Part shown: piece by piece, positions 1 through 31,722 of the stretch
Layout of the letters: each line of letters opens with the position of its first letter
How positions within the stretch are numbered: position 1 is the first letter of the stretch
Assembly (NCBI GenBank): GCA_003138955.1
Contig: PLHP01000405.1
Location: forward strand, 1-33,673
Origin: Acidobacteriaceae bacterium
Lineage (GTDB): Bacteria; Acidobacteriota; Terriglobia; Terriglobales; Acidobacteriaceae
Reading direction: 5' to 3'
Length of the DNA: 33,673 bases
Notes under the pieces: model-generated
Databases searched by the model: none
The model's input: only the letters and a program-made list of their open reading frames with translations
Told to the model about the DNA's origin: nothing
Position numbers and translations under genes: made by a program

Positions 1-329
1 AACACCAGTCGCGCTGCGGCGGGAGCCCGTCGTCGTCCTCGCTTACGGCGAATGCCCAACCTCTCCTCCACATACAGCCGGTATACCCGCTTGTGGTTGA
101 CCACCCACCCTTCGCGCACCAGCAGCACCTGCAACCTGCGGTAGCCGAACCGGTGCCGTTCTTTGGCCAGTTCGCGCAGCCGCACTCGGAGCTGGCCGTC
201 CTCCGGCCGCCGCCGATACCGATATGTCCCCCGATGAATCTGGATCAGCCCGCAGGCGCGTCGCTCGGAGACGGCTACTTCTGAGCGCATCACTACCACC
301 GCCTGCTTCCGCAGCCGCGGGCTCACCAT
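1..329 (-). CDS. IS3-family transposase OrfB, N-terminal part (runs off window)
   Basis: This frame is open from an ATG at 329 to the left edge, about 109 codons. The ORF track does not list it because it has no stop inside the window; the listed 43..438 ORF is a shadow. The translation has the HTH_21 region expected at the start of IS3 OrfB: SERRACGLIQIHRGTYRYR, then RFGYRRLQVLLVREGW and NHKRVYRLY. In this family the DDE catalytic domain follows and would lie outside the window. The ATG overlaps the end of orfA in the -1 frame, so the protein is probably made mainly as an OrfAB fusion by frameshifting. Family assignment is firm; whether the element is active cannot be judged without the rest. 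Confidence 0.88.
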   Translation of the reverse strand, partial: MVSPRLRKQAVVVMRSEVAVSERRACGLIQIHRGTYRYRRRPEDGQLRVRLRELAKERHRFGYRRLQVLLVREGWVVNHKRVYRLYVEERLGIRRKRGRRRAPAAARLV

Positions 330-589
330 TTTTTTGCGACCACCACCTGCAACGCTCGTTTGTCCAGCAGCAGTCCGGCGACGGTGTGCTTGAGCTGGTG
401 GTTCTCCTCTTCCAGTTGCCGCAGCCGTTTCGCCTCACTCACTTCCATCCCGCCGTACTTCCCCTTCCAGCGGTAGAAGCACCCCCGCGTGATGCCGTGC
501 CGCCGGCACAGCTCTCCCGTCTCCACTCCCGCCTCCGATTCCTTCAGGATGGCGATGATCTGCTCCTCGCCAAATCGACTCTTCCTCAC
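323..589 (-). CDS. IS3-family transposase OrfA
   Basis: This 88-residue helix-turn-helix protein is typical in length and sequence for IS3/IS407-group OrfA. Residues 1-50 form the Tnp_1 HTH that binds the IS ends (SRFGEEQIIAILKE, then LCRRHGITRGCFYRWKGKYGG). Residues 50-85 form a leucine-zipper-like helix (AKRLRQLEEENHQLKHTVAGL) used for dimerisation. It ends KKW-stop exactly at the A7 slippery run, which would allow -1 frameshifting into orfB. The frame is intact. It is unrelated in function to the polysaccharide locus and is a recent insertion at its edge. Confidence 0.92.
   Translation of the reverse strand: MRKSRFGEEQIIAILKESEAGVETGELCRRHGITRGCFYRWKGKYGGMEVSEAKRLRQLEEENHQLKHTVAGLLLDKRALQVVVAKKW
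329..335 (-). promoter_or_regulatory. A7 slippery site for programmed -1 frameshift between orfA and orfB
   Basis: On the minus strand orfA ends GCA AAA AAA TGG TGA. The heptamer A-AAA-AAA fits the X-XXY-YYZ rule. A one-base backward slip reads ATG GTG AGC, which is exactly the orfB frame. Programmed -1 frameshifting is the known way IS3 elements make OrfAB transposase. I did not identify a downstream stimulatory pseudoknot. Confidence 0.75.
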
Positions 590-639: not shown

Positions 640-669
640 CCGCTGGACTAATTTTCGGGGGGCAGGTCA
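640..669 (-). repeat. Terminal inverted repeat of the IS3/IS407-like element
   Basis: Read inward from 669 the sequence is TGACCTGCCCCCCGAAAATT followed by AGTCCAGCGG. It starts with the TG that is usual at IS3-family ends and marks the junction with the interrupted beta-helix gene. The partner repeat is outside the window, so the exact repeat length is an estimate. Confidence 0.65.
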
Positions 670-1005
670 TAGGCGCGTATAGCGAAAAACAGTTTTTCCG
701 ATTCCCGCGCCAACAATGTGCACGTGCGACGGGATCAGCAGCCCTACCGTGAAGGGATCATTGCCATCTGTACTCTGGTAGTCGGAAGTCCACTCCGAAC
801 ATCCCGCCGAAAGAACAATCTGACCCGCATGTAACTGCAGCGTACCTCCGCCAGCCTTTCCCAGTGCGTCGAGTCGCTGCTGCAAGTGAATTAGTTCTTC
901 GCTTCCCGCTGTCTGGCCGAAACCAAGCGACAAAGCCGATCCAACAAACGACGCAATTGAGATTACGACGATGATCGCCTGTCCATAAAACCTTGCGCCG
1001 CGCAT
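667..1005 (-). pseudogene. Secreted beta-helix (pectate-lyase-like) protein, truncated by IS insertion
   Basis: The ATG at 1005 is preceded by GGAGGT seven bases upstream, which fixes the start; the track start (a GTG nine bases earlier) is not needed. The 112-residue product begins with a signal peptide (RGARFYGQAIIVVISIASF, then SALSLGFGQ). It continues into the first coils of a right-handed beta-helix: LGKAGGGTLQLHAGQIVLSAG and IPSHVHIVGAGIGKTVFR. That pattern is the N-terminal cap of pectate-lyase-superfamily proteins. The reading frame stops at 667-669, which is the TGA formed by the first bases of the IS end. The rest of the gene must lie beyond the IS, outside the window, or be lost. 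It is probably a third member of the beta-helix set at 13877-18229, although the sequence is not close to them. Confidence 0.8.
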
Positions 1006-1444
1006 AAACCGCACCTCCAGGACATCGGCAATTTGCCGGAAAGCCGCGTTGCCGGTCCAGGTCCTGTGCGGATTATCACTGGAAGAACAGCGAATTCAGC
1101 GCGTGACCCGGCACCTCCGTGCGGTGCCGATTTCAAGAATGGTAGCGTTCTTATATCGGGAATTTGCGAGTCGTACCACCCACTTAGCGCGTCTTCGCCT
1201 GGTCGTAGAATTCCAACGCGGAAAAGTAACTCAAGGAGCTAACGAGAACGTTGGATCGCGCGTCTCGCAGACGCGCACTCGCGTCCTGAACTTCTTGGTG
1301 AACAATGCCAGCTGTCGGCAAGGAAGCGCCTAAACGGTAGTGCCCTAACCAAATTAGGACACTACCGCTAAACCAAAACCATTGACTGGCATGGAAATCA
1401 GGGATAATATTAGCGGGTCGCTTTCCCTTTTGGAGCCAACCAAG
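1006..1444. other. Intergenic region between truncated beta-helix gene and FecR-like gene
   Basis: This is a divergent intergenic region of about 440 bases. The track ORFs here have no recognisable protein features. It must contain the promoters for both flanking genes, but I could not pick out a convincing -35/-10 pair. It contains a strong hairpin at 1335-1367, listed separately. Confidence 0.5.
1335..1367. repeat. Perfect-looking hairpin, 13-bp stem with one mismatch
   Basis: The arms CGGTAGTG-c-CCTAA and TTAGG-a-CACTACCG flank a CCAAA loop. The stem is 8+5 base pairs with one C/A mismatch. No T-tract follows on either strand, so it is not a standard intrinsic terminator. It lies about 80 bases upstream of the FecR-like start codon. 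It could be a REP-like element, a fragment of a mobile-element end, or an operator. The sequence shows the palindrome; the function is unknown. Confidence 0.6.
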
Positions 1445-8230: not shown

Positions 8231-9421
8231 TCAGTGGCTTGCATTGTTCCGAGTAACGGAGCGAATCAATTCCCTCGAAGCGAACTCCGCTCCCGAAACA
8301 AAACCAAGCAGCGGCCCGAAACTCCATGCCGCAGGTTTGCCAAAAAAATGCAATCCTGGGACCGTAGACTCCAGTCCCCCGTGGAGCACGGGGAAGCCGT
8401 CCACTGTCTCAAGTTGCGTTAATAATGACTGTGCCAGGAACGGATACCGTGAAACATCAACCCGGAATCCTGTCGCGAGAAGCGCGTGATCGACGAGGCG
8501 TTCCGTCCCGTCGTTAAGTCGAAGTTGCAGTCGGCTGCCAGCGACCGCGGCGGAAACGACGCTGCGTCCTAATGTGATGGGCACTCCAGCAATTCGCGAC
8601 TGCAGCCAATAGGCGCCAGCCGGCCGGATTGCACGATAGGCGGTACGATCCTGAAAACCTCGCGGGAATCGACGAAACAGGTGCGGCATGGCAACCAGAC
8701 GGCTAATCCCCGCCGGGCCGACATCTCGCGTCGAATACAGCATTTTTGAGATCACGCCCAGATGATGGAGTCTCGGATGCAGCCCGACCCAATTCAGTGT
8801 CCGATCGCGTGCAATCACCTCAACGTCGATGTCTGCCTCCCTAAGCAAAGCAGCTGACTCGAGGGCGCTCTGCCCAGCGCCGATGACGACCACCCGCTGG
8901 CCTTTAAACCTCCGGAGATCGTTTTGCTCGGTAGTATGCGAAGCCAGCGCACAAGGGATGCCAGCGAACTCCGCCGGCCGGCTGGCAAACGCACCGATTC
9001 CTGTCGCGACCACAACGCGCCGCGAGGTGAATTCCTCTCCTTCTGCCATGACCACCTTGAAGCCGCGCGGGTCAATTTCCACACTGCTGACATGCCGTCT
9101 ATCCAAATCCGGAACAGCATGAACCTGATACCAACGTCCGTAATCGATAAAGCGATCGAGTGGAATCGGCTTCGGTATGTGATTACCGTTCTGTCGGCAA
9201 TAGGCGTCTAACGTCAATTCTCGCCTGGGATCAGCAAGGTGCGAGGCTCCCCAATTTGAGCGTAGACACATGCCCGCCGGCATCTGGTTCTGCCAGAACG
9301 CCATCGGCTCGCCAAAAACTCTGGCTTCGACGCCCGCCGCACGGAGGTATGCCGCTGCACAAAGTCCGTAGGGACCCGCACCGATGATAGTTAACCAGCA
9401 ATCTGCCGATTTGCTCTTCAT
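8231..9421 (-). CDS. FAD/NAD(P)-binding monooxygenase-like oxidoreductase
   Basis: This is a 396-residue flavoprotein. AAGGAT lies eight bases before the ATG. The FAD-binding GxGxxG is GAGPYG at residues 14-19. The NADPH-binding Rossmann motif is GAGQSALE at 181-188, and the ATG motif VVVATGIG is at 137-144. The two dinucleotide sites and the spacing match class B flavin monooxygenases and lysine/ornithine N-hydroxylases. The W-N-MP-GM-LRS pattern (residues 43-55) resembles the substrate-side loop of this group. It is likely to hydroxylate an N or S atom or oxidise a small substrate. It sits between a deacetylase-like gene and an ATP-grasp ligase, which suggests work on an amino group attached to the glycan or on a small amine ligated to it. 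The exact reaction is not determinable. Confidence 0.85.
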   Translation of the reverse strand: MKSKSADCWLTIIGAGPYGLCAAAYLRAAGVEARVFGEPMAFWQNQMPAGMCLRSNWGASHLADPRRELTLDAYCRQNGNHIPKPIPLDRFIDYGRWYQVHAVPDLDRRHVSSVEIDPRGFKVVMAEGEEFTSRRVVVATGIGAFASRPAEFAGIPCALASHTTEQNDLRRFKGQRVVVIGAGQSALESAALLREADIDVEVIARDRTLNWVGLHPRLHHLGVISKMLYSTRDVGPAGISRLVAMPHLFRRFPRGFQDRTAYRAIRPAGAYWLQSRIAGVPITLGRSVVSAAVAGSRLQLRLNDGTERLVDHALLATGFRVDVSRYPFLAQSLLTQLETVDGFPVLHGGLESTVPGLHFFGKPAAWSFGPLLGFVSGAEFASRELIRSVTRNNASH

Positions 9422-9455
9422 GGTTATCGGATCCTTGCCAGATGGAATGAACCGG

Positions 9456-10979: not shown

Positions 10980-12047
10980 TCATGTTCCCAGATTGCCTGT
11001 CAGGCTTCGGCCTCCGATGCGGAAAAGTGCCTTGTCCCAGAGCCTTACTAGCGACCACCTGAGACTGGGCAGCGACCACTGCGCGCGTCGAGCGAGACGC
11101 CAGCCAAATAATGCCTTGATCCAGGAGTACTTCCAGGACAAGCGCGGCACTTCCAGTTGCCCGCCCAGGTTCCTGGACATTTCTTCCGCCTGTCTGAAAA
11201 TATCGAGTCGCTCCGGATAGAAAACAACCATCCGGTTTTGCAGGAACCTCACACACGCGGCACGTACCCTCTCACTGTCTTCCAACGATCGGAGATAACC
11301 GACATGGAGTTGCAGCGAGCACCAATGTGCCTCCCGTTTTTTGTCGGAGAGCCCTATGTAGCTCAGGCTGCCAGACCCGGACGCGCGATAGTACACTCTC
11401 GCTTCTGGAACAAATCGGACGCCATCGCTGGCCAGGAGGACGCGGCAGAAGTACTCCTGATCATCATCACTCAATAGCCTGGTGTCCCATGGACCGGCCG
11501 CTTCGGTCAGTTCGCGACTGACCAGCCACGTGGCGGTCTGCATGTACAGGTTCTGCTCCATCTTGCGCAGCAGCCACTCAGTAGTGGACAGATCACACCA
11601 CAGCGCGGTGGGAACGAATTTCGCTCGATCATACCGGTGCATGAACCGTCCCCATGCCGAGGAAAGAAGGGTACGTTTACTTCCACACTGGTCCGCTGCC
11701 TCCATCTGCTTCTCAATTTTGTCGGGAGCCAGGAGATCATCGGCATCCAGCCACTGAATGTAATCTCCCTGGCTCAGAGAGAAAGCCTTGTTTCTGGCTG
11801 CGGCAGCTCCCTGGTTTTCCTGTGTGATAACGCGGACCGACTCCGACTCGAACCGCCGGGCAATTTTCAGCGTTTGATCGGCGGAGCCATCGTCAACCAC
11901 GATGATTTCCTTTGGCTCCCACGTTTGCGCAATCGCCGACCGGAGAGTGTCACCGATCCATTCCTGCGCGTTGAATGCAGGAATGAGAATTGATACCAAA
12001 GGGGTTCTCATGATGGTTTCGAAGGGGCACAGGGAATTTCCCGACAC
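10980..12047 (-). CDS. Family 2 glycosyltransferase
   Basis: This GT-A fold glycosyltransferase is 355 residues from a GTG at 12047. AAGGAG ends four bases before the GTG; an ATG at 12011 (MRTPLVSILIPAFN) is the alternative and has no good ribosome-binding site. The nucleotide-binding signature VVDDGSADQT is at residues 50-59. QENQGAAAARNKA is at 76-88, and the metal-binding DADD motif is at 101-104. A possible base region is SDDDQEYFCRVL. The C-terminal 120 residues are basic and helical, without clear membrane spans. It probably adds one sugar to the lipid-linked repeat unit at the cytoplasmic face. It follows the flippase gene by 15 bases, so coupling is likely. Confidence 0.9.
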   Translation of the reverse strand: MSGNSLCPFETIMRTPLVSILIPAFNAQEWIGDTLRSAIAQTWEPKEIIVVDDGSADQTLKIARRFESESVRVITQENQGAAAARNKAFSLSQGDYIQWLDADDLLAPDKIEKQMEAADQCGSKRTLLSSAWGRFMHRYDRAKFVPTALWCDLSTTEWLLRKMEQNLYMQTATWLVSRELTEAAGPWDTRLLSDDDQEYFCRVLLASDGVRFVPEARVYYRASGSGSLSYIGLSDKKREAHWCSLQLHVGYLRSLEDSERVRAACVRFLQNRMVVFYPERLDIFRQAEEMSRNLGGQLEVPRLSWKYSWIKALFGWRLARRAQWSLPSLRWSLVRLWDKALFRIGGRSLTGNLGT

Positions 12048-12062
12048 TACTCCTTGACCTGG

Positions 12063-13646
12063 TTAGGGCGCAAGCTCTCCGTTCGGGTCAGGGAGACAGG
12101 ACGCAGCGGCTTCCAGGGACGGCTTTCGGAAGACGCCAGATGGAAGCATTTCCCGCAAAAGCCTCGTGAACTGATTGAGAGGTGCATACCCTCCATGCAG
12201 AAGAATGACCGCAGTCAGATAGAGAACTACGAACAATAACGTGGTCGTCACCATCCGGATCAACGCTCCCTTTGCGCTTGAAGCCGAAACAGTGGACAGT
12301 ATTGCCTTCGCGATGCCCGCGGATGCGCAACCCGCTAACAGGCTCGCAACCAAGTACTTCCAAATAGTTGCCAGCACGGGCGCGAATCCGAATTGGATTG
12401 GCCTTCCCGCATACCAGAACGCGGGTGCTATCAAAACGAAGTAGGAGGTGGTCCAAGCTACGGCTATTCCCTCGGGCCCCCAGCGCAGTCCCGTAATAAG
12501 AAGCAGCACTGTGACCGCAGCCTCTATCAGTCCCCAGCGGAACCATCGGTCCGCCCGTCCGATCGAAAGGTTGATCCAACCGTGGATTTGGTAGAGGATC
12601 ATAATCCCGATTCCGGGGCCGAATAAGGTAAAGATACGTCCCGCCGACTCCCACCCCGGTCCCAGTAAAAGACGAATCAGATCTTTGCCCACTAGGGTCA
12701 GATCAGCACTCAACCCCATACCCACAAAAGCCACCACAGACAGTACGCCAAGAAGATGTTGTCTGTACTTAACGAGGTTCCCCCGGAACCGGCTTAGGGC
12801 GGACACGGCGACGTTCGTGAGGGATGCCGTCGACATGCTCAGCGGAAGGTTAAATAGGTCGTAAGCCTTTTTGTAGAAGCCGAGAGAAGTTGCGCCAAAG
12901 CGCCATCCCACGAGGAGATTGTCCGTATTGTTGGCAAAGTAGTTGGCGGTGAAACGTCCATAAGTGTGCATCGCGAACCGTACCATCGGGCGAGTACCGA
13001 CTCCGCGCCGGGGGCGGCCGGGAACCCATCGACACAACGACCAAGCCCCGATGGATGTGCTAAGCGAAAGTGCGATGGATCCTGCGACCAGAGCCCAGTA
13101 TCCCCAACCTGCCCAGCCGAGAGAGATTGACACGGCCGTCGAAACCAGACGCGCCACCACGTCATTGGCGGACACAACCGAGAACCGCATCGCTCGCTTG
13201 AGTAGGGCCACGTGCTGAACCGAGGTGCTGCTGATGAGGATCGTGACTGACATGCCAACGGCCACGCGCGTTACGCGCGGGTCGCCGTAAAACCGCGCCA
13301 GCAGAGTCCCTGCCGCCGCGAATCCGATTGTCAATAGAAAACCTACCCCTATATTGACCCAGAACAGATTACTGGCCAAGAAATGGTCGATCTCGTCTAC
13401 CTGAAGAATGGCCTCGGTAAATCCGTTTGGACCACAGTTCACAAGAAGCAGGCTGAACAAACTAACCATGCCTATCAGCCCAAAGTCGGCGGGTACGAGG
13501 AGCCGAGCCAAGATCATCGTGGAGATGACTTGGATGGCTAAGCCCGACACTGAGGAGAGCAGTGTGGCCCCGGCGCCTCGAACGGCGCGCCGAGGCACGT
13601 CGTCTGGGTTCAACCGGAACGTGCCCCCGGCATCAAACGGCCTCAA
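12063..13646 (-). CDS. Wzx/WzxC-type polysaccharide flippase (MOP superfamily)
   Basis: This 527-residue membrane protein has about 12-14 hydrophobic segments and the polysaccharide-synthesis transporter pattern: GATLLSSVSGLAIQVISTMI near the N-terminus, ILARLLVPADFGLIGMVSLF, NTDNLLVGWRFGATSLGFYK mid-protein, and SALSRFRGN after it. These match the WzxC/Polysacc_synt_3 branch, which flips undecaprenyl-linked repeat units to the periplasm. The start is a TTG with AGGAGG four bases upstream; no in-frame ATG or GTG near it is better placed. It stands between two secreted beta-helix genes upstream and a GT2 gene downstream. The 230-base gap before it probably carries its own promoter. Confidence 0.92.
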   Translation of the reverse strand: MRPFDAGGTFRLNPDDVPRRAVRGAGATLLSSVSGLAIQVISTMILARLLVPADFGLIGMVSLFSLLLVNCGPNGFTEAILQVDEIDHFLASNLFWVNIGVGFLLTIGFAAAGTLLARFYGDPRVTRVAVGMSVTILISSTSVQHVALLKRAMRFSVVSANDVVARLVSTAVSISLGWAGWGYWALVAGSIALSLSTSIGAWSLCRWVPGRPRRGVGTRPMVRFAMHTYGRFTANYFANNTDNLLVGWRFGATSLGFYKKAYDLFNLPLSMSTASLTNVAVSALSRFRGNLVKYRQHLLGVLSVVAFVGMGLSADLTLVGKDLIRLLLGPGWESAGRIFTLFGPGIGIMILYQIHGWINLSIGRADRWFRWGLIEAAVTVLLLITGLRWGPEGIAVAWTTSYFVLIAPAFWYAGRPIQFGFAPVLATIWKYLVASLLAGCASAGIAKAILSTVSASSAKGALIRMVTTTLLFVVLYLTAVILLHGGYAPLNQFTRLLREMLPSGVFRKPSLEAAASCLPDPNGELAP

Positions 13647-13876: not shown

Positions 13877-15928
13877 TCAATGAACGACAGCCGTGATGCC
13901 CGTCGGAGCGGGCGGACCAGAAGCACCGCCATAGCAAGTGTTCGCGTTGAAGGTTGTTATCACGCTCCCAGAGCCGTCTGACGATCCGCCCATCACGTTG
14001 AAGTAACAGTTCATGGCCGGATTCGGGTAGGCGTGCCCGCCTAGGCTGGACGTCCCGGCAGTCATTGTCCCGCCGGTCACGTCCGGTCCAATCGCGGGAA
14101 AAGGCGAAGCCGGTCCGCTCGGAAATTGCCACCAACTCGGCTGGCCCGCCAAGTAGAAAGAATTCGGCAGCGTCGTGGATGATGGAACCGGGTTGGCGTT
14201 GATGTAGGTGACGGCCGTCGTCGGAATCTCCGAACCGTTCGTACAGTATGATGGCAGCGGGGTGGAGCCGCACCAGCGTACTCCTCCAGTGACTGTATCG
14301 TAGTTTCCCCAGCGCAGCATGGTGCTTTCTACCAAAGTATCCTTTTGTGGATAACTACTTCCACCGGGGTCCACCTCGCAATTCGACCATCCCCAACCCA
14401 TTGCGAAGATTGAAGCATTGCAAGCCGTCTGACCACCTGAGCCAGTAGTGCCGGTCTGGTAGATGGTAAAGTAGCCGCCATAGCCCATTACGTTCCCTAT
14501 GATATTCTCGCCGCGCCAGCCATAGTAGACGTTGAAAGCGTTCGTGTTATTGGTGGTCAGCGTGGCCGGCGAAGTTGCCCCGTTGTATCCACGCCCCGAT
14601 AATTGGTTGCGGAAAAAGGTATTCAGTCCTCCCATCCCGTGAATGTCGTCAAGATTGATGGAAGCGCCTTCATTCCCCTCCATCAGCTTCATTTCATTCC
14701 CGGCATCGTGGGCCATGAAAGCCGCTTCGTTCCATTTTGGAGTTGAACCGGGCTGGTACAGATTGTTGATCCAGAAGTTGTAGCCCATTACCCCACCGCT
14801 GCCCCCAGCACCGATCACTGGAGCGGCGATTTGCTGGAAGATGTTGTTCTCGATCAGGTAATCCGAAGAGAGCAAGTCCTCGATGCCATAGCTTACCGAT
14901 GTTTCGTTCTGCGTTCCAAAGAAGTAGCTGTCACGGACGGTGATGTTCTTGGTCTGGTAGAAGTAAACGTGGTCCCGGTTGGTGTTGGTGTCGACAATGT
15001 TCTTGACCCAGCAGTTATAGCAATCGTAGAACTGTATGCCAGCTTGCGCCGACGTGCTGCGGGTGTGGTTCAGCGTCATGTCCTCGATCCCGACGCCTTG
15101 GATTACCGCAGTACTCGGCCACCAAATGCCGACGTTCTGCGACGAGCGCCAGTTAGTTCCGTACACCGGATTCGAGAGAGTAAGCAGCGGAGAACTTGAC
15201 GAGTACGGAGAACTGGTGTTGATGGCCCTAATGATGAACACCTGGCTTTGGTTGTAATCCACCCCGCCGATGACGCTGCCGTTATAGGAGCCGGTCTGGC
15301 TGCTTTGGTGGCAGTAAGGCGCTGTCGTGTCTTGATCGCAAACGAACAGCCCGCTGCCGACGGACGTGTCATCAGCTTGGTCCATGATGATCATGGTGCC
15401 TACCGACAAGCCGGACTTGCCGATGGTATTGACCACGATTTGGTTGGAACCTTGCGTATACCCGCTGCTGACCTGAGCAGCATTCGAGCCGCCCGGCTGG
15501 GTTGGCGTGCTGCCCGAGAACCATTCGCCCGCGCTGTCGATTACGCAAATGTCGGCGTTGCAGGCGCTGGCCACGCCGGTAAAATTCAAAATCGTGTGTC
15601 CCGGACCGGCTCCGCGAAGCGTAATGTTGCTGGAGCCTTTGTCGCTAATGCCCGAAATGGAAAACGTCCCCGCAGGCAGAAGCACGACTGAGTTCGCTGG
15701 CGCAGATGCGATGGCGGCGGTGATGTTGGCTCCCGTGACGCCGGAGCCCGTCAGCGCGGCGCAAGCCGAGGTCGAGCAAATCGTGGTGCGATTGGTGATG
15801 GTCGCGCCCACGCCGTTCGTCGCCCAATTCGTTGCGCGGCTGGGGTCAATGATGCCAGACCAAGGCTGACCAAAAGCCAATACCGAACTAAGCGCAAAGA
15901 TAGCTACGGGCAGTGTCAGTACTTTCAT
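13877..15928 (-). CDS. Secreted right-handed parallel beta-helix protein (pectate-lyase-like), paralogue A
   Basis: The 683-residue protein has a clear signal peptide (MKVLTLPVAIFALSSVLAFG); AAGGAT is seven bases before the ATG. The mature N-terminus reads PWSGIIDPSRATNWATNGVG. Residues 60-125 form the pectate-lyase-superfamily cap (VVLLPAGTFSISGI, NITLRGAGPGHTILNF). A small inserted beta domain follows (QIVVNTIGKSGLSVGTMIIM). Repeated helix coils with Asn ladders fill about 270-480 (VKNIVDTNTNRDHVYF, ITVRDSYFFG, YLIENNIFQQ). The C-terminus ends with a Pro-rich stretch and GITAVVH. Likely roles are cleavage or modification of the exported polysaccharide, or a structural role on the cell surface. 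No catalytic triad can be assigned by eye. The gene is a tandem paralogue of 16040-18229. Confidence 0.85.
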   Translation of the reverse strand: MKVLTLPVAIFALSSVLAFGQPWSGIIDPSRATNWATNGVGATITNRTTICSTSACAALTGSGVTGANITAAIASAPANSVVLLPAGTFSISGISDKGSSNITLRGAGPGHTILNFTGVASACNADICVIDSAGEWFSGSTPTQPGGSNAAQVSSGYTQGSNQIVVNTIGKSGLSVGTMIIMDQADDTSVGSGLFVCDQDTTAPYCHQSSQTGSYNGSVIGGVDYNQSQVFIIRAINTSSPYSSSSPLLTLSNPVYGTNWRSSQNVGIWWPSTAVIQGVGIEDMTLNHTRSTSAQAGIQFYDCYNCWVKNIVDTNTNRDHVYFYQTKNITVRDSYFFGTQNETSVSYGIEDLLSSDYLIENNIFQQIAAPVIGAGGSGGVMGYNFWINNLYQPGSTPKWNEAAFMAHDAGNEMKLMEGNEGASINLDDIHGMGGLNTFFRNQLSGRGYNGATSPATLTTNNTNAFNVYYGWRGENIIGNVMGYGGYFTIYQTGTTGSGGQTACNASIFAMGWGWSNCEVDPGGSSYPQKDTLVESTMLRWGNYDTVTGGVRWCGSTPLPSYCTNGSEIPTTAVTYINANPVPSSTTLPNSFYLAGQPSWWQFPSGPASPFPAIGPDVTGGTMTAGTSSLGGHAYPNPAMNCYFNVMGGSSDGSGSVITTFNANTCYGGASGPPAPTGITAVVH

Positions 15929-16039
15929 TTCAGATGATCCTTACATAGCCAACCACCCTTATGGTCGGTGTAACTATCTGAATATGCGCTTTCATTAGCG
16001 CTGGCATCCACTGCTGCTAGGATATAGTCATACTTGAGC

Positions 16040-18229
16040 TTAATGAACAGTGGTGGTTAAGCCCTTAGGAGGCGCAGGTGGCGTAGGTGCTGCGCCAGTG
16101 GGATAACAAACATTCGCGTCAAACAGCAAAATGTTCGGCCAAGTGAACGATCCCCCAGAGACATAAGTGCCCGGACTAGCGGTCTGTGGGTAGAACGTGA
16201 TCTGGTTTCCCGAAATCGTCTCTATGAGGACGGTTCCGTTGTAGGCTGATGGGGAAATCCCCGTCACTGTAATCTTATCGCCTACCGTTAATCCAGTCGT
16301 GCTGTTCAGCGTCAGCGTTGTAACCGCAGGGCTCCCGTTTGCATAATTTGCAGCGGTTACCGTGTACGTCGTTTGACGGCTAGTGTCAATCGCGCTGTTG
16401 GCATAGCACAACCCTGCCGGAATCGTATAGACGTGCCCGGTCAGGTCGTTTCCTCCGCTCACATCGGGGCCGATTGCGGGAAATGGAATCGTCGTCTGCC
16501 CGATACCGTCAGCCCACCATGAGGGCGTAGCGCTTAGGAAGAACGAACTCGGAAGAGTGTGGGTGTAAGGACAACCAGTCTGCCCACCAGCATAAGTGCA
16601 ATTCCACGTCGCGGCGGCATTTACCACATCATAATTGCCCCAGAGCAGCGTGCTCGTCAATACATTAGGATCAGTCGTAAGTCCGCTGCAAGAGGTGGCT
16701 TGATTGGTGGCGCAGAATCCGGTCACGAAGATCGACAAACCTGGGTTCCCGTTAGGGGCGGATTCGTCGTCTATGTAATAGGTATGATAACCCACCTTGC
16801 CCAGCACGTTGCCGACGAAGTTCGACTGATAGCTGTAGGTGTCAATCTCCACCGGGGTAGCGTTGCCTCCGTAAATTAAGCCAATGCCCCAGCCGAGGTA
16901 CTGATTGCGAAAGTGCGTGGCCAGCCCGGTCGTGCCGTGGATGTTGTCGCCCACCGCCTGACCGCCCATGTTGCCTTCGTAGAGGTCCATATATACCCCG
17001 GTGTCATGGCCGTAGTTGATGTCCGAGGCCATGTATGTAGGCGGTGAGGTGTAGAAATCAGTGCCGAAGTTGTAGGCGTACACGTTCCCGGTAGCCGAAC
17101 CAGAAATCAAGGGCTGGGTGGAATGGTGCATGATGTTGTTGTCTACGAGGTTGTCGGAGGTGGTGTTGTATTCAATGATGTAGCAACTGGAGGAAGGACA
17201 GGTGTCGTAGAAATAATTGCTTTGCACCGTGATGTGATTGGCCTGCATGAGCCAGACGTGGTTGCGTAAGCCCGACTCGTTCCCCAGCGAGCGTATGTTC
17301 GTGACCCACGAATTGGTCGCGGAAGAGAAGGCGAGCCCGGACATAATCGAAGAACTGTCCGAATGGTCAAGCGTCATGTTCTCAATACCGTCGTATTGAT
17401 CCTCAGCATTCGCCCACCATGCGCCGGGAGACTTGCCGCGCACGCTCCAGTTGGTTGCGTACAAGCCAGGCGAAATGCCGACCGTATAACCGCCGCTGCC
17501 GTTGCTGGCGATGCTGGTAACCTGTACGAATTGCTCCTCGCTCCAAGTCACGCCAGAAATACTGCGTCCAAAGGCCACGCCTTGCTGCGAACAGGTGGTC
17601 GCGGTAACACCCGTGTCCGAGTCGCAGACAAACCAGCCGACTCCACTCTGCGGCGTGGTGTCGTTGGCCTGGTCGAGCACCAAGGCGTTGCCGACCTTCA
17701 GGTTGGTCACGTTGTTGAGCGTGATCGAGGTCGTGCCCTGAACGTATCCAGCAGTCCACTTGGCGCAGTTCGTCCCCGCGGAAGAAGTCCCGCACGGCGG
17801 GTTAACTTTGGCGCTCAGGAAATCGGTAGCCTCGCCCTGAAAGCAGACGTCGGCGGTGCCATCCAAGCAGCCTGAACCGGCAGTGAAATGGAGAATGGTC
17901 GACTTCGGCCCGGATCCGCGCAAGACGACATGGTTGACGTTCGAGAAGTTGATGCCAGTCGAGAGGGTGAAGGTCCCTGGTCCAAGCAGCACGTATTGAC
18001 TCGTGCCGGAACAATTGGAGAGAGCGGTGTTGATCGCCGCCGCAGTGCCGCTGTAGGCAGCAATGGTCGAACCGCACTGCGTCCATGAGGCATCGGGGAT
18101 TCCGCCAACCACTCCCGCATTCGTCCAATTCACCGCGCGATTGGGGTTAATAATGCCAGACCATGTCTGGGCTTGGGAGTACACACAAAGGCAAAGCAAG
18201 ATAACAGGGGGGAGTAACTGCCGTTTCAT
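16040..18229 (-). CDS. Secreted right-handed parallel beta-helix protein, paralogue B
   Basis: I start at the ATG at 18229 (MKRQLLPPVILLCLCVYSQA), which has GAGGTG seven bases upstream and begins a signal peptide, giving 729 residues; the track ORF adds 39 spurious residues. The mature start TWSGIINPNRAVNWTNAGVV closely matches paralogue A. The cap (YVLLGPGTFTLSTGI, HVVLRGSGPKSTILHF), the inserted beta domain (TSITLNNVTNLKVGNALVLD) and the helix coils (ITVQSNYFYD, NLVDNNIMHHS) follow in the same order. Near the C-terminus it has about 70 extra residues absent from A (TLTLNSTTGLTVGDKITVTG and following). It ends GLTTTVH, like A. It lies between the polymerase/ligase gene and paralogue A. Action on the secreted glycan is likely but unproven. 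Confidence 0.85.
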   Translation of the reverse strand: MKRQLLPPVILLCLCVYSQAQTWSGIINPNRAVNWTNAGVVGGIPDASWTQCGSTIAAYSGTAAAINTALSNCSGTSQYVLLGPGTFTLSTGINFSNVNHVVLRGSGPKSTILHFTAGSGCLDGTADVCFQGEATDFLSAKVNPPCGTSSAGTNCAKWTAGYVQGTTSITLNNVTNLKVGNALVLDQANDTTPQSGVGWFVCDSDTGVTATTCSQQGVAFGRSISGVTWSEEQFVQVTSIASNGSGGYTVGISPGLYATNWSVRGKSPGAWWANAEDQYDGIENMTLDHSDSSSIMSGLAFSSATNSWVTNIRSLGNESGLRNHVWLMQANHITVQSNYFYDTCPSSSCYIIEYNTTSDNLVDNNIMHHSTQPLISGSATGNVYAYNFGTDFYTSPPTYMASDINYGHDTGVYMDLYEGNMGGQAVGDNIHGTTGLATHFRNQYLGWGIGLIYGGNATPVEIDTYSYQSNFVGNVLGKVGYHTYYIDDESAPNGNPGLSIFVTGFCATNQATSCSGLTTDPNVLTSTLLWGNYDVVNAAATWNCTYAGGQTGCPYTHTLPSSFFLSATPSWWADGIGQTTIPFPAIGPDVSGGNDLTGHVYTIPAGLCYANSAIDTSRQTTYTVTAANYANGSPAVTTLTLNSTTGLTVGDKITVTGISPSAYNGTVLIETISGNQITFYPQTASPGTYVSGGSFTWPNILLFDANVCYPTGAAPTPPAPPKGLTTTVH

Positions 18230-18495: not shown

Positions 18496-19899
18496 TCAGA
18501 CTTCTTCCAGGCACGGAACAACCGGCGGGCTAAGTGGCGCGAGTGCCACACTCTTCCTCGGCTGAATCCGTACCCAGCCCCCGGGAACAGCGACCGCCGC
18601 CAAGAGGAAGAAGATCCATATTGGGTGCATCATCGCGAACGCGGACTCCGTGAAGTTGTAGGCCACGAACACCACAAGATATGCTAACCTGAGGCTGGTC
18701 GAGCGCGAATCCCTGCGCAACGCAGCCACTATATTCTTATAACCGGTCACCAAAACCACAGCCAGCAAAGTAAGTCCCAGCCCCCCCAAGTTCAAGAAAA
18801 CCTCAATATAGCCGTTATGGGCTTGAACTGGGTGCCACCAGTAGATGCTCCAGATCTTTTCCAGCCGTTTCCCCAGCCAGAAACTATCGTAACCGGTACC
18901 GAGCAATGGATTGTGCACCATTCCGAGCACCAATTTCCAGATGTCAGTCCGGCCGGTCAGGGATGGGTCTCTTCCCATCGACTGCACCAAGCCCGAGCCG
19001 AAATTGAGGAACAGTGCGGAAAAGGAAACAGTCAGGATCGCCGCCACCATCAGGTGCACGATCCACGACCGTCGGCCGAAAGCGCGGACATTGGTCGCGA
19101 CAAGCAACGTGACCGCCATTAGGAAACACGAAAAAGAAGTCATCGAATTGGCCAGCCAGAATAGCCAGATGACCATCGCGAGGACGACACCGTGAGCGAT
19201 CAGCGTCCGAGTTCTGTTTCTGCGAGTACCGTGCCGATCACGCAACTCCTCAACGATGCACCACACAGACCCGAGTCCGAGAAGCAGACAAAGATAACCG
19301 AGTTGGTTCTTGTTGGATGTGACTCCAGTGTAAGTAGCCCCCCCCGTGAAAGGACTGTAGCGCCGCCCAAAGTCGGGATAATACTTGATCAATAACACGG
19401 ACGTGGGTATTAAGAGAAAAACCAGCCGCCCCAGGAGTCGCTTGACGGCAGCCAAAATATCCGAATCGGTCAGGACGATCAGGACCATCACCAAGTCACC
19501 CAAAGCCTTAACCCAACGCTTAAAGGAGACGCCACTGTAGTCGGACCAAAGGGCGCTTACGCCACAGTACAAGAAAAAGAGAAGAATCGGAATGTTCGCC
19601 CGCAGCAGCCTGCGGACCCGATGACCTCTCATGAAAAGCACGACTATACCGAACACTACGAGTCCGGTAAACACGAAGCGGTCTAGAGGACTACCGTCAA
19701 GGAGCTGACCGGGGGACATGCTCGAAGCGTCTGTGCCTGCTGCCCCCAGCCACTCCGATACCGGTCGGGATGCGGCGATCCATAACCACACCACGGGTAT
19801 CCAGAGAGCTTTCGAAGTACGCGCCTTTCGGTCACGAGCAAGCAGGAAGAGGCCCATGATACCGAATGCGAACAAAACGGTGGCGTTCTGCGGAGTCAA
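18496..19899 (-). CDS. O-antigen ligase / Wzy-type polymerase family membrane protein
   Basis: This 467-residue protein has 10-12 membrane segments and the Wzy_C/O-antigen-ligase signature. A long periplasmic loop contains SLTGRTDIWKLVLGMVHNPL and LGTGYDSFW, and ends PVQAHNGYIEVFLNLGGLGL, where the H-N-x-Y/F-L motif is diagnostic. An upstream LWSDYSGVSFKRWVKALGD segment is also typical. Such proteins polymerise lipid-linked repeat units or ligate them to an acceptor at the periplasmic face. In a locus with a Wzx flippase, a polymerase role seems the better guess. The start is a TTG at 19899 with only a weak upstream GGAAAG; an in-frame TAG shortly upstream limits alternatives. It lies 35 bases after the asparagine-synthetase-like gene. 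Confidence 0.88.
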   Translation of the reverse strand: MTPQNATVLFAFGIMGLFLLARDRKARTSKALWIPVVWLWIAASRPVSEWLGAAGTDASSMSPGQLLDGSPLDRFVFTGLVVFGIVVLFMRGHRVRRLLRANIPILLFFLYCGVSALWSDYSGVSFKRWVKALGDLVMVLIVLTDSDILAAVKRLLGRLVFLLIPTSVLLIKYYPDFGRRYSPFTGGATYTGVTSNKNQLGYLCLLLGLGSVWCIVEELRDRHGTRRNRTRTLIAHGVVLAMVIWLFWLANSMTSFSCFLMAVTLLVATNVRAFGRRSWIVHLMVAAILTVSFSALFLNFGSGLVQSMGRDPSLTGRTDIWKLVLGMVHNPLLGTGYDSFWLGKRLEKIWSIYWWHPVQAHNGYIEVFLNLGGLGLTLLAVVLVTGYKNIVAALRRDSRSTSLRLAYLVVFVAYNFTESAFAMMHPIWIFFLLAAVAVPGGWVRIQPRKSVALAPLSPPVVPCLEEV

Positions 19900-19934: not shown

Positions 19935-21758
19935 TCATCTCGAGTCCAGAAAAAGGCGGTGCAAAAGTTCCAAAGTTAGTATTTTGTGGATCTCCGTCGT
20001 ATGGTTCCGGTCTCCTTTGGTGTGTCCCCGCACAATCGCTTCGACCGCGCTCCGTTGCAGGTATGGCCGGGACAGTGTTCGCGAATCAAGCAGCATTTCC
20101 CGTATGTATTTTGCGAGGGCATCACGGTACCAGATGCGGAAATGATAAAACTTGTGCCGGCCGAGGAATAGCCGCTCTAAATGAAACGACGAGAAGAGAT
20201 GATCGATTTTCGCCACTGCTTGCGGCATCCCATAATCGTAGGCGTATTCCGCCTTAAACGTGAACTCGAGAAAACTCCGTAAAGCCGCTGCGCGCAGACG
20301 CCCATGGTTGCCAGCCAACCCTCGGTCTGTACGGATCTTCCGGAGTTCGGGGCTGCCATCGGCGATCAAGCGAAGTGAAACGTCGTTGTTCGTAAGCATC
20401 GCTTGCGGCGCGCGGAAAACCGCTCGCACAAAGTCGTTGTCGAGATATGGCGAGCGCAACGAGAGCTGGGTCTGCTCCAGCGCGAGAAGGCCGTAGTGGT
20501 GCCAGGGCGCCTGCCGGAAGACCGCGAATGAAAGCGGGTGGCCGTTCACGAGCGCAGCATAGGTCTGCTTCGCGACTTGGACCTGGGAGAGAAGTTCTGG
20601 AGCGAACAGCCCGGCAGCGGGCTCCTGTGGCTTGAATGCCCGAACCCGGCGTAGTACCTCGCCGCCATAGTTTCCGGTCATCCGGACCGGGGCAATCTTA
20701 GCCGCTTGCTCATTCACGTAAAGATCCGCGGAACGGCTGACGTCAGCACACGCGTCCGTGAGGTACACGGTTCGCTCCGCGTACTGGGGAAAGCGCGTGA
20801 GGAACTCCTCTCCTACTTGGATCACCTCGTGACTTTGTCCGCACGAGCGCGCTACCTCGCGAGCGATGCTGACGTCCTGACAATCGCGAAAAGCCCCCCC
20901 AAAGGAGTAGCAGGGAAGAGTTCCCGGAGGGGAGTCTTGCCACGACATAATAATGCGTGTGTCCAGTCCCCCAGTAAGGGACATGCCAATCCGCTCTTGC
21001 CCGTTAAAGTAGCGAGGCAGATTGCGGGAGAAGACCTCCCGGACCTCACGGTAATAGGATTCCGGCTCCAGCGTGTCTTGTTCCTCCCACACCCGCGGTT
21101 GAAAGTAGCAGGCTTTCTGCTCGATTGAGCCGCCCCGAAGCACCCAAGCCGCGGCCGGTGGGAGCACATGGATGCCCTCGAAGAGCGTCCGGTTCTCCAA
21201 CACACAGCCACAAGCCACCAACTCACCGAGGCCTCGAGCGTCAGCCTGGCGGAGTTCGGGGCGAACGGCCAGGATCGCCTTGGCTTCCGCTGCAAAGTAG
21301 AAAGCCTCGGTCGACTGGTGATAGTAGATCCGATGCATACCGTACCGGTCGTTGAAAAGCGTCCCCGTCCCGCGAGTCCGATCCGTCAGCAGCCCGTGGA
21401 ACCTTCCGTTCAAACCCGCCGGAAACGCAGGGTCCTCCTCGTAGAGGTGAACGAGATAGGAGGCCCTCTTCTCCTCGAGCGTATGACCCCGCTCCTTCAA
21501 GCGGCAAGCGATTCCTGGCTCCGGGTACTCCTCTCCGGAAAAAATAAGACCGATATCTCCCGTTTCGTTGCAGAGTGGCATTCCGTCCGCGAATGATTCC
21601 TTCCGTGCGGCCCACCCCACGTAAACTCCAAGCGACTCATCCGCCCATGTACCCGTGCTGTAGAAAGACTCGTGCCGAACGGACTCGACCATCTTGCACA
21701 CTTCCTGCTCCGCTCGTTGGCGCGGCATTCTTGTGACAAGACCTACGATTCCTGGCAT
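19935..21758 (-). CDS. Asparagine-synthetase-like protein lacking the glutaminase nucleophile
   Basis: The 607-residue protein has the two-domain plan of AsnB. The N-terminal class-II amidotransferase-like domain covers about residues 1-200 (LNGRFHGLL at 116-124, FNDRYGMHRIYYH at 135-147, FAAEAKAIL at 155-163). The C-terminal PP-loop ATP pyrophosphatase domain begins with SLTGGLDTR at 260-268. The protein starts MPGIVG, whereas active glutaminases start M-C-G, so the Cys2 nucleophile is replaced by Pro. It therefore cannot release ammonia from glutamine by the usual route. It may adenylate a carboxylate and couple it to another amine, as beta-lactam synthetase does. AAGGA lies six bases before the ATG and overlaps the stop of the FemAB-like gene, so the two are tightly coupled. 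Confidence 0.88.
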   Translation of the reverse strand: MPGIVGLVTRMPRQRAEQEVCKMVESVRHESFYSTGTWADESLGVYVGWAARKESFADGMPLCNETGDIGLIFSGEEYPEPGIACRLKERGHTLEEKRASYLVHLYEEDPAFPAGLNGRFHGLLTDRTRGTGTLFNDRYGMHRIYYHQSTEAFYFAAEAKAILAVRPELRQADARGLGELVACGCVLENRTLFEGIHVLPPAAAWVLRGGSIEQKACYFQPRVWEEQDTLEPESYYREVREVFSRNLPRYFNGQERIGMSLTGGLDTRIIMSWQDSPPGTLPCYSFGGAFRDCQDVSIAREVARSCGQSHEVIQVGEEFLTRFPQYAERTVYLTDACADVSRSADLYVNEQAAKIAPVRMTGNYGGEVLRRVRAFKPQEPAAGLFAPELLSQVQVAKQTYAALVNGHPLSFAVFRQAPWHHYGLLALEQTQLSLRSPYLDNDFVRAVFRAPQAMLTNNDVSLRLIADGSPELRKIRTDRGLAGNHGRLRAAALRSFLEFTFKAEYAYDYGMPQAVAKIDHLFSSFHLERLFLGRHKFYHFRIWYRDALAKYIREMLLDSRTLSRPYLQRSAVEAIVRGHTKGDRNHTTEIHKILTLELLHRLFLDSR

Positions 21759-21761
21759 CGG

Positions 21762-22679
21762 CTATCCTTCAAAGAGTCTCTCGTTACGGACTGAAAACTT
21801 CCGGTTGTACCAGGATTTCCTAAGGTCGCGGAGCTTGGCCGCCACGGGCTCGGGGAGACGATCGGCGAGCTTGTGGTGCAAGCCGAGCCGGAAGGCCAGC
21901 GAACCGAGCGGAGTCAGCGGAACATAGTAGCGGGGCAAATCGATCTGTTGAAAGCCGTTGTTGCGCTTGAAATCGGCGAGTGTGTCTTGCTGTTTCTTGC
22001 CGTACGTAAAGCCGGCATACACCAGATAGGGGATGCCCCAATCGGCACAGCAGCGCACCGCGTGCGCGACCAAGGCGTTGGTCGGCGCTTTGTCGCGGTG
22101 GCAAACCATCGAGACAATGTTCATCATGCCCGCCTGCGTTCCCGTCCCATCTTGGACTAGCCGGGCAAAACCGATCAGGCTGTCATTGAAATAAGCGCCA
22201 ATAAATACGCTGCTCTCGGGAAAAGTGGCCTCCTCCGCATAAACGGTCCTGATGTCTTTTCCGTAATGGCTGTTCGGCTTGCCCTGGCGGACCGGAGTCT
22301 CGTTATAGATCTCCCAGATTCCCTTCACCAAGGCATCGTCGAAGGCTACTTCCCGCACCACTACTCCCTTCTTCTCCGCCTTCCGGACCATGTTTCGCGT
22401 CTTGGCGTCCACCTGCTTCGTCCACCAATGGTCGAAGGTCGATACCGCCAGGACGGCCAAATTGTCGGGTTCCATGGGATAACGAAACTTGGGTGCAGTC
22501 TCCGGCAGTTTCTGCATGAACGTGAACAGGTCCACTCGGGTTCCACACTTCCGCAGGCCGTCGAGAACCGGCTCCGGGTCGTCCACAAATTGATACTTGT
22601 CGGCATCAAGGCAGGCGATCCGAAGGAGCCTCCCTTGAACCCTGATGTCCCTACCACAACTTTTTATCAATGGATGCAT
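21762..22679 (-). CDS. FemAB/GNAT-like acyltransferase
   Basis: This is 305 residues; GGAAGG is nine bases upstream of the ATG. The central and C-terminal parts have a GNAT-fold pattern like that of FemAB-related proteins in exopolysaccharide loci: WWTKQVDAKTRNMVRKAEKK (a basic helix), SSVFIGAYFNDSLIGFARLV, then APTNALVAHAVRCCADWGIP, and YGKKQQDTLADFKRNNGFQQ. FemAB proteins transfer an aminoacyl group from tRNA, while GNAT enzymes transfer acyl groups from acyl-CoA. The sequence does not decide between them. The stop codon lies inside the ribosome-binding site of the asparagine-synthetase-like gene. The pair may add an amino-acid or acyl substituent to a sugar; this is inference. Confidence 0.78.
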   Translation of the reverse strand: MHPLIKSCGRDIRVQGRLLRIACLDADKYQFVDDPEPVLDGLRKCGTRVDLFTFMQKLPETAPKFRYPMEPDNLAVLAVSTFDHWWTKQVDAKTRNMVRKAEKKGVVVREVAFDDALVKGIWEIYNETPVRQGKPNSHYGKDIRTVYAEEATFPESSVFIGAYFNDSLIGFARLVQDGTGTQAGMMNIVSMVCHRDKAPTNALVAHAVRCCADWGIPYLVYAGFTYGKKQQDTLADFKRNNGFQQIDLPRYYVPLTPLGSLAFRLGLHHKLADRLPEPVAAKLRDLRKSWYNRKFSVRNERLFEG

Positions 22680-22748: not shown

Positions 22749-23654
22749 CTAGTCAGTGACGTATGGATCTTTTATCGGGTTGATACCCGCGAACGCAAGC
22801 AGCTTGCCGAGATGATCAAAAAGCTTAACCAAGAGAGTCAAGAACCGGTGGTACCCTAACATCATCGCAAACGGCAGAGCAACGGTGTAAACTACGGCGG
22901 CCACCAAGGATTTTCCTAGGCTTATTGCGCCAAAGCTCGGTTGCAGCCTTGCCGATGCTCCACGAAGCAACGCTTTCCTTAACATATAGGTAGCTTTCCA
23001 GCGGGCCGGGGAAATCGCCTCATACACCACGGCGTCAGCGGACCAAATGAACTTATGGCCCTTTTCGATCATCCTTCTGAAGAAATCCTGGTCCTCACCG
23101 ACACGGAATTGTGGTCGGAACGGGTGTTCGCCGGCTTCGAAAACCTTCTTGTTCAGGAGCACATTGCCGGATCGTGCCTCCCACCACTTGACAATAGAAC
23201 CTGTCCGATTAACAGGACGCTCGTAGAAGTCGCTCTTAACGATCCAGTTTGGCGGTTCACCATCGAAGTGGCGCTTCACTGGTCCAAGCACCCCATCGAC
23301 CTGATGTTCCTCGCAGGTCTTGAACAAGGTCAGCAGCCAATGGCTCGTCGGAAACTCGTCGTCGTCGATAAGCGCGATGAAATCGCCGCTGGCGTTTTCG
23401 ATCGCCTTGTTGCGCGCTAGCGCGATGCCCTGCCGCGGCTCGACGCAGTACGTGATCGGGATGCTCCGCTGCGCGGCAAAATCCAACACTGCGGCTTTTG
23501 CAGATTGCAGTTCATCATTGTCGGCCACCACGATTGAAAAAGTGAATAGGCCATGCGTATCCTGGCCTGCAAGTTCCGTCAACAAACGTTGCAGACACTG
23601 GGGTCGCTTATAAGTGCAAACGCAGACACATATGTGATCCGTCTCTTTTGGCAT
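22749..23654 (-). CDS. Family 2 glycosyltransferase
   Basis: This 301-residue GT-A enzyme opens CVCVCTYKRPQCLQRLL (residues 9-25). It has VVADNDE at 42-48, EPRQGIALARNKAIENA at 72-88 and the metal-binding IDDDE at 96-100. FRVGEDQDFFRRM carries the ED-D acid motif seen in many GT2 catalytic sites. Two hydrophobic stretches near the C-terminus (AAVVYTVALPFAMMLGY, KLLAFAGI) suggest membrane association. It likely adds a sugar to the lipid-linked repeat unit. There is no strong ribosome-binding site before the ATG. It is 69 bases upstream of the FemAB-like gene. Confidence 0.9.
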   Translation of the reverse strand: MPKETDHICVCVCTYKRPQCLQRLLTELAGQDTHGLFTFSIVVADNDELQSAKAAVLDFAAQRSIPITYCVEPRQGIALARNKAIENASGDFIALIDDDEFPTSHWLLTLFKTCEEHQVDGVLGPVKRHFDGEPPNWIVKSDFYERPVNRTGSIVKWWEARSGNVLLNKKVFEAGEHPFRPQFRVGEDQDFFRRMIEKGHKFIWSADAVVYEAISPARWKATYMLRKALLRGASARLQPSFGAISLGKSLVAAVVYTVALPFAMMLGYHRFLTLLVKLFDHLGKLLAFAGINPIKDPYVTD

Positions 23655-30207: not shown

Positions 30208-31635
30208 TCAGGCCAGACTTTCCTGTACGTCTTTGTCGGCCTGAGCCGACCGGTATTCCTTCCCGTCCGCGACCGCAGTTGGAGACGGCACGGCACCGGC
30301 CCGGCCGACGCTGATATAGCGAAACCCGTGACCGCTGATTTCCTCGGGACTGAACATGTTCCGGCCATCGATGACCAGCGGCTGTTCGACCATCGACAGC
30401 AATCTTTTCCAGTCCAGGTGCCGGAACTCCTCCCATTCGGTGACGATCAGAATGGCGTCCGCGCCTTGCGCGGCCTGATAGGCGTCGGCACAGTACGTAA
30501 TGTTGGGAAGGACCGCCTTCGCCTTTTCGGCCGCTACCGGGTCATAGGCGCTCACGCTCGCGCCTTCATCCAGCAATGATTTTGCCAGGGCGATAGCCGG
30601 TGCGAAACGCACATCGTCGGTGTTGGGTTTGAAGGCAAGACCCCAAATTGCGACCTTCTTGCCGCGGACCACCCACAGTTCCCCTTGAATCTTCTCTACG
30701 AATTGCTTAACTCGGTGCTGGTTGATCTTATCGACCTCTCTTAGTAAGGAAAAATCACAGCGTGACTTCTCTGCGATCCTGATGAATGCCTGCACATCTT
30801 TCGGAAAGCAAAACCCGCCAAAACCGATGCCGGGATTTAGGAACGCCGGGCCGATACGCGGATCCAGTCCCATGCCCTGCGCTACTTTGGTTACGTCCGC
30901 TCCCACTGCCTCGCACAGATCGGCAACCATGTTGATGAACGATATTTTCATGGCCAGGAAGGAATTGGAGGCATGTTTGATCAGTTCGGCCGAACTGGTA
31001 TCGGTCACCAGGAAGACAGGATCCTTACACTTCGGGCAATCCGAATGCACAGGGCAGGTGAATTCCTGCGCGATAACGGGCTCATAGATCTCGCGCAGCA
31101 GTTGTGCGGCCCGCGCCGAGTTGACCCCCACCACAATCCTGTCAGGGTGCAAGAAATCCTCGACCGCCGAGCCTTCGCGCAAGAACTCGGGATTCGAGGC
31201 GACGTCGTAGTCCAAACCGTTCGTACTGAGCACCGATAGGTATCTGCTTAACTGCGCCCCGGTCTGGACCGGTACCGTGCTCTTTTCTATCACCAGGCGA
31301 TAACCCGATGCACGCTTGGCGATCGCCCGAGCGACTCCCTCAATGGCAGACAAATCCGCATCGCCGTTGGCGAGTGGCGGCGTGCCGACGCAGATAAAGA
31401 TGGCGCGACCCCAATCGATTGCTTCCCCGGCCGAGCCAAAGTGGAGACGGGCCGCCTTTCGTGCAATTTCGATGACTTTCTCGAGATGGGGCTCGAAGAG
31501 AGGCATGACGCCGCTCTGCAGCTTGGAAAGCTTATCGCTATCGCTCTCAGCGCAGAAGACGTCATGGCCGATTTGGGCTAGGCATGCGGCGGTCGTGAGT
31601 CCGACATAACCGGCGCCAATAACTGAGATTTTCAT
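30208..31635 (-). CDS. UDP-glucose/UDP-sugar 6-dehydrogenase
   Basis: I start at the ATG at 31635 (MKISVIGAGYVGLTTAACLA), giving 475 residues; the 19 extra residues of the track ORF break the usual start. The NAD site is GAGYVG (7-12). FICVGTPPLANGDADL and EKSTVPVQTG follow, then FLREGSAVEDFLHPDRIVVG. The catalytic site is GFGGFCFPKD (271-280) with Cys276. It oxidises a UDP-hexose at C6 to a UDP-uronic acid. The sequence looks closer to UDP-glucose than to UDP-GlcNAc dehydrogenases, but that is a judgement from memory. Unusually, an insert at about 192-204 carries three Cys (TCPVHSDCPKCKDP). The C-terminal 30 residues are low-complexity. Confidence 0.92.
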   Translation of the reverse strand: MKISVIGAGYVGLTTAACLAQIGHDVFCAESDSDKLSKLQSGVMPLFEPHLEKVIEIARKAARLHFGSAGEAIDWGRAIFICVGTPPLANGDADLSAIEGVARAIAKRASGYRLVIEKSTVPVQTGAQLSRYLSVLSTNGLDYDVASNPEFLREGSAVEDFLHPDRIVVGVNSARAAQLLREIYEPVIAQEFTCPVHSDCPKCKDPVFLVTDTSSAELIKHASNSFLAMKISFINMVADLCEAVGADVTKVAQGMGLDPRIGPAFLNPGIGFGGFCFPKDVQAFIRIAEKSRCDFSLLREVDKINQHRVKQFVEKIQGELWVVRGKKVAIWGLAFKPNTDDVRFAPAIALAKSLLDEGASVSAYDPVAAEKAKAVLPNITYCADAYQAAQGADAILIVTEWEEFRHLDWKRLLSMVEQPLVIDGRNMFSPEEISGHGFRYISVGRAGAVPSPTAVADGKEYRSAQADKDVQESLA

Positions 31636-31722
31636 TTTGTTAGCTTCTCTCCGGAGGTCAGCTTGTGAGTCCCTATGGACTTGCTCATACAATCTTTTCC
31701 GCGGACGCCAAAGCGAACGCGG

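Follow-up and report, generated by a model that had tools for sequence, protein, structure and literature searches.

Two putatively exported beta-helix proteins with a conserved C-terminal tail in an acidobacterial exopolysaccharide locus

Introduction

The surface biology of the Acidobacteriota is little studied. In one Acidobacteriaceae genome (4.6 Mb in 423 contigs, estimated to be 85% complete) two genes for large beta-helix proteins lie between the polymerase and flippase genes of an exopolysaccharide cluster, and both proteins end in a similar short tail. What do such proteins do inside a polysaccharide assembly locus, and what is the tail for? A preliminary description of this DNA had proposed a lyase, hydrolase or surface scaffold dedicated to the glycan of the locus and a tail that serves as a surface-retention or secretion signal. 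Here we analyze the entire contig of 33,673 bases that carries the pair (the window, to which all positions refer unless a locus is named), together with the homologs of the two proteins and their gene neighborhoods.

Results

Between about 33.6 kb and 5.8 kb almost every large gene lies on the minus strand, and these genes make up an exopolysaccharide cluster. Its upper part encodes an acyltransferase, a DegT aminotransferase, a UDP-sugar dehydrogenase, a DUF354 protein, glycosyltransferases, an epimerase, a methyltransferase and a MocA oxidoreductase; the dehydrogenase, of the UDP-glucose/GDP-mannose type (30208..31692; PF03721/PF00984/PF03720), is assigned to sugar-nucleotide supply, and a GT2 glycosyltransferase is found at 22749..23654 (PF00535). 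Then follow a FemAB-like protein (21762..22679; weak matches to PF02388 and TIGR03019), an AsnB-like amidotransferase (19935..21758; PF00733/PF13537), a Wzy/O-antigen-ligase-like membrane protein (18496..19899; PF04932), the two beta-helix genes, a Wzx flippase (12063..13646; PF13440, E 4e-65), more glycosyltransferases including a GT2 enzyme (10980..12047; PF00535), a flavoprotein, an ATP-grasp protein and a VanZ/laminin-G protein, all on the minus strand.

At the left edge of the contig an insertion sequence on the minus strand (3..589, with an orfA-like frame at 323-589 and the start of orfB, containing HTH_21/PF13276, at 3-329) cuts another exported protein down to an N-terminal fragment of 115 codons (667..1014, minus strand). 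The preliminary description had taken this fragment for a third, truncated beta-helix gene. The fragment does not match the family described below (E 0.038 against its profile, short of inclusion), which leaves its beta-helix nature plausible but unproven. The same end of the window carries an exported 833-residue repeat protein with no Pfam match (3067-5568) and, on the plus strand, an exported protein of FecR-like appearance (1382-2107) beside insertion-sequence-like remnants (2205-2943).

The tandem pair itself was recovered as two open reading frames on the minus strand, spanning 13877-18229 as first described. Protein A (16040..18229, ATG at 18229) has 729 residues and protein B (13877..15928) has 683. 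The two share one architecture: an N-terminus that by eye resembles a Sec signal peptide, the motif (T/P)WSGII(N/D)P(N/S)RA(V/T)NW immediately after it, a beta-helix core and a C-terminal tail, with FDANVCYPTGAAPTPPAPPKGLTTTVH and FNANTCYGGASGPPAPTGITAVVH as the ends of the two proteins. They align with 35% identity over 703 columns (BLASTP, E 4e-85) and are the only copies of their family in this genome. The earlier view of A and B as paralogs with common N- and C-terminal motifs is therefore right, but the duplication is old: A and B do not cluster with each other in a 78-member tree, which speaks against a recent tandem duplication.

Neither protein matches Pfam, and in NCBIfam both meet only TIGR03805, a generic beta-helix model, at 32.8 and 19.4 bits against a cut-off of 141.5. 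A sequence search of the PDB with A found no relative, the sole match being 7oa7 at E 0.12. A profile built from 19 relatives retrieved 79 family loci outside the window, mostly in Acidobacteriota and scattered in Myxococcota, Thermodesulfobacteriota, Bacteroidota, Fibrobacterota and others; the taxon labels of several of these metagenome-assembled genomes are doubtful and possibly wrong. Judged by these searches, A and B belong to a new, unnamed beta-helix family. Identical proteins occur under different phylum labels at L027, L028 and L078 ("Verrucomicrobia" for L078), and one protein under different organism labels at L047 and L048; both cases are probably mis-binned contigs. A contig labeled Woesearchaeota (L096) holds an open frame of more than 4,500 residues that matches the family distantly.

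AlphaFold2 models B confidently as a right-handed beta-helix of consecutive short strands (pLDDT 86.8, pTM 0.91). Foldseek matches this model best to the K1 capsule lyase 7w1c (E 3.9e-12), LKA1 gp49 (4ru4) and other capsule depolymerases, followed by GH110 and an alginate epimerase/lyase, with PfbA among the weaker matches; at these modest TM-scores (about 0.4) the class of fold is clear, but not the reaction. Across 78 family sequences from several phyla, Glu417, Asp427 and Arg440 (B numbering) are invariant, and His407 (76/78) and Glu282 (77/78) nearly so; the equivalents in A, E418, D428, R441 and H408, are candidate catalytic residues. The invariant Glu, Asp and Arg and the near-invariant His point to a candidate active site and, in combination with the depolymerase-like fold of the model, favor an enzyme over a scaffold, with hydrolase, lyase and epimerase indistinguishable. 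Of the roles first put forward, lyase or hydrolase is thus more probable than scaffold.

A structural role, in which A and B would be held at the surface as scaffolds or lectins, binding the polysaccharide and cross-linking it instead of cutting it, accords with the existence of beta-helix adhesins and with the weaker match to PfbA. WceF of Pantoea stewartii, a beta-helix protein from a biofilm synthesis operon, hydrolyzes its own exopolysaccharide, stewartan, and also clusters with this polysaccharide (PMC7949094), the latter a point in favor of the structural role. Yet the conserved residues are of a kind typical of an active site and depolymerases are the best fold matches, and we consider a purely structural role rather unlikely.

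The tail proved to be conserved well beyond A and B. We found 48 tails, with the consensus PPAPTGLTAxVH/Q, 12 residues long and fixed to the stop codon. Counted from the stop, Pro stands at -9 in 44 of them, Leu at -6 in 40, Gly or Asn at -7 in 41 and His, Gln or Asn at -1 in 45, and the linker ahead of the tail is variable (3-17 residues). In the window the tails of A (PAPPKGLTTTVH, 16043..16078) and B (PPAPTGITAVVH, 13880..13915), both on the minus strand, lie immediately before the stop. A degenerate DNA pattern for the tail gave nine matches in 150 related genomes against none for the reversed control, and 13 against four in a partly overlapping set of 399 genomes of the class; the tail is therefore not a product of chance.

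Secreted proteins unrelated to this family carry the tail at their C-termini as well: members of GH5 and GH12, apiosidase-like proteins, other beta-helices, and proteins of laminin-like or Ig-like type. In two of the Ig-like proteins the clearest mutual match is the last 24 residues. Its recurrence outside the family, in several cases on secreted enzymes of sugar chains, suggests a docking tag of a new kind; we found no description of such a C-terminal tag in the open-access literature searched. Only about two tail proteins were found per genome, fewer than for known sorting tags, and a very common genome-wide signal can be set aside (two matches in the window's genome with the medium pattern, the loosest pattern performing no better than its control). 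The tail is not a canonical exosortase substrate either, since its 12 residues, for the most part small or polar and with His, Gln or Asn in last place, contain no transmembrane helix or basic cluster. Nor does it cap the beta-helix: the tail of B is predicted to be disordered (pLDDT 44-51). The 833-residue protein of the window, weakly similar to the two Ig-like tag bearers, was rejected as a further bearer and ends in YVSEP.

Unsupervised clustering of neighboring genes showed that, besides the family itself, the commonest companions include joined GT2/Wzx genes (34 loci), Wzy (cluster c3, 33 loci), AsnB (c4, 32 loci) and FemAB (c6, 23 loci). A Wzy, AsnB, FemAB or Wzx gene lies within about 10 kb of 33 of the 43 tail-bearing and 6 of the 42 tail-less family members scored, a count in which some loci end at contig edges and a few are near-copies. 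Among control regions elsewhere on the same contigs of related genomes, one in 20 had any such gene (an AsnB). The place of the pair in an assembly locus is thus real and conserved in Acidobacteriota loci. It is not universal across homologs: those of Myxococcota, Bacteroidota, Fibrobacterota and other groups are unlinked to polysaccharide genes, and some tail-bearing members show none within the sequence examined.

Tail and neighborhood change together. On the 78-member tree, built by FastTree with local supports from an alignment without the tail columns, the tail, scored by a loose pattern, needs 15 changes, at least 13 of them on supported branches. Phylogenetically independent pairs show the tail and polysaccharide linkage shifting in the same direction about nine times and in opposite directions never (median p 0.004), and polysaccharide-unlinked homologs are generally tail-less. 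This co-variation strengthens the idea of a retention or sorting signal, a role that is inferred. In homologs from other phyla, inspection by eye found other ends at the tail's place: MYXO-CTERM-like (L025, L064), T9SS-like (L059, L075), transmembrane or Arg-rich (L039, L040), dockerin-like (L036) or a plain stop. Given its conservation, its mobility and its replacement by known kinds of sorting ends, the tail is likely to be a short, portable C-terminal tag with a docking or retention role.

Several of these loci also lie near exosortase genes. In G015 one uninterrupted cluster has AsnB and Wzy at one end, the family gene within it and an exosortase at the other end. Five other genomes (G008, G010, G092, G093 and G100) have an exosortase on the contig of the family gene, at a distance of 20-40 kb. 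The two exosortases that were checked had their best score against the XrtC model, below its cut-off, and they possibly represent an undescribed subfamily. Exosortases in or near the exopolysaccharide loci of these six genomes include L142:16361-17155 and L147:1778-2695. Enzymes of a GDP-heptose-like pathway are added at many family loci; at L027:5308-9698 and similar loci GmhA-, GmhB-, GHMP-kinase- and nucleotidyltransferase-like genes and a GDP-mannose dehydratase-like gene adjoin the family gene. In G008, NRPS-like modules (L147:9292-15896 and L148:2-7368) lie between family gene and exosortase, and L026 encodes a shorter adenylation/carrier/thioesterase protein.

How might the tail dock? 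It is in register with strand A of a fibronectin type III (FnIII) domain, and in L054, a tail-less member of the family, a complete fn3 domain (profile positions 2-81, starting VPTGVIATAAG) stands in the tail's place. One specific mechanism, which would be a form of docking rather than an exclusive alternative to it, is a split FnIII domain in Acidobacteriota: the 12-residue tag would act as strand A on secreted enzymes and be captured, by strand complementation, by membrane-anchored FnIII mini-proteins that lack this strand and are encoded at the same exopolysaccharide/exosortase locus, so that the enzymes would be held on the cell or in the matrix. Short FnIII proteins with a lipoprotein-like N-terminus or an N-terminal membrane anchor (by eye) do occur, and four of five Pfam fn3 matches to them start at profile position 10-14 of 84 (strand B), the fifth at 6. 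In the mini-protein of the window's own genome six strands are predicted and strand A is absent (domain pLDDT >90), and the model matches FnIII structures. In G015 a mini-protein gene is found between the exosortase and a further gene for a tail-bearing protein; G020 has one at 14 kb from its family gene, and G093 has two near the exosortase. In 8 of 12 genomes a gene for a strand-A-less FnIII domain lies no more than 45 kb from a family gene, where a crude estimate with the distance chosen post hoc gives an expectation of about 0.7. Such domains occur in 20/20 genomes with a family gene or tail and in 76/130 others (p 8e-5, uncorrected for kinship). Strand swapping in FnIII domains is known, to judge by the title of structure 4m6a, and TapA/TasA use strand donation in biofilm (PMC10151520).

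Against this mechanism, strand-A-less FnIII domains are common in the class, where they outnumber tails and also occur inside larger proteins with no evident donor, and an anchored mini-protein is not seen in every tail genome. These domains are not specific to tail genomes (96 of 150 genomes have one). Since they are so common and so numerous relative to tails, we hold strand complementation to be a tentative and rather improbable proposal. Single-domain proteins of this kind, with a lipobox-like or membrane-anchor N-terminus and in some cases near exosortases, are encoded at L155:1501-1827, L151:1435-1761, L156:832-1173, L158:1501-1836 and L145:4053-4472 and 9077-9508.

The register with strand A of a complete domain in relatives would also suit a vestige, in which an early stop left just the beginning of an FnIII domain that was then inherited without function. 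A relic of this kind sits poorly with 12 residues conserved to the last one while the preceding linker varies, with the many changes of the tail along with gene neighborhood, and with its recurrence at the ends of unrelated protein families, and we judge it distinctly unlikely. Nutritional secreted glycanases that lie in the locus by chance are equally doubtful: GH5, GH12 and apiosidase-like tail proteins do have a nutritional appearance and homologs in other phyla are unlinked, but placement among assembly genes is conserved across many loci.

Discussion

Overall, we see an ordinary body in an unusual context, most likely a new beta-helix family acting on the polysaccharide of its own locus. 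The fuller explanation that we favor, to which we would give about an even chance, is that A and B are exported beta-helix enzymes that act on this polysaccharide and carry a portable C-terminal docking or retention tag. We envision a scenario in which A and B are exported and act on the polymer of the surrounding Wzx/Wzy locus, where they may set chain length or modify the exported polymer, as WceF acts on stewartan. The flexible tail at the stop codon would keep or dock the enzyme in the envelope or matrix, and would thereby take the place of the MYXO-CTERM-like, T9SS-like, transmembrane or dockerin-like ends of homologs in other phyla.

Should the tag serve in docking, it would represent a short sorting element at the C-terminus that lacks a membrane helix and marks enzymes shaping the cell's own polysaccharide. 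The strand-complementation version, if true, would be a new mode of protein attachment and would connect polysaccharide assembly with exosortase loci and matrix enzymes in a testable way. In any case, a new beta-helix family at Wzy-type loci offers candidate enzymes with new polysaccharide specificities.

These proteins and their loci resemble several known systems in part. Phage capsule depolymerases and tailspikes (7w1c, 4ru4) are the best structural matches to the B model, but at only 12-15% identity and TM about 0.4, and they are phage proteins, whereas A and B are encoded by the cell and have a signal-peptide-like start. PEP-CTERM/exosortase systems have AsnB-like and FemAB-like genes in common with these loci, and six genomes carry an exosortase on the same contig, but the subfamily models score below their cut-offs here; the AsnB-like amidotransferase of the window has a distant likeness to that of the XrtA/PEP-CTERM system (TIGR03108, below cut-off). 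MYXO-CTERM and T9SS sorting tags are portable across unrelated proteins, and similar-looking ends occupy the same place in homologs from other phyla, whereas the tail of A and B has only about 12 residues and no helix or folded domain. With chaperone-usher pili and TapA/TasA the split-FnIII proposal shares the principle that one protein supplies the strand missing from the beta-sandwich of another (PMC10151520); in our case the principle is inferred from sequence and gene context, and the fold would be FnIII. The closest characterized analog is WceF, which, like VexL named in the same paper (PMC7949094), is an exported right-handed beta-helix protein from an exopolysaccharide operon. WceF is Tat-exported and trimeric, the available part of that paper mentions no VH/VQ tail, and the likeness to A and B drawn here is one of fold and place in the operon.
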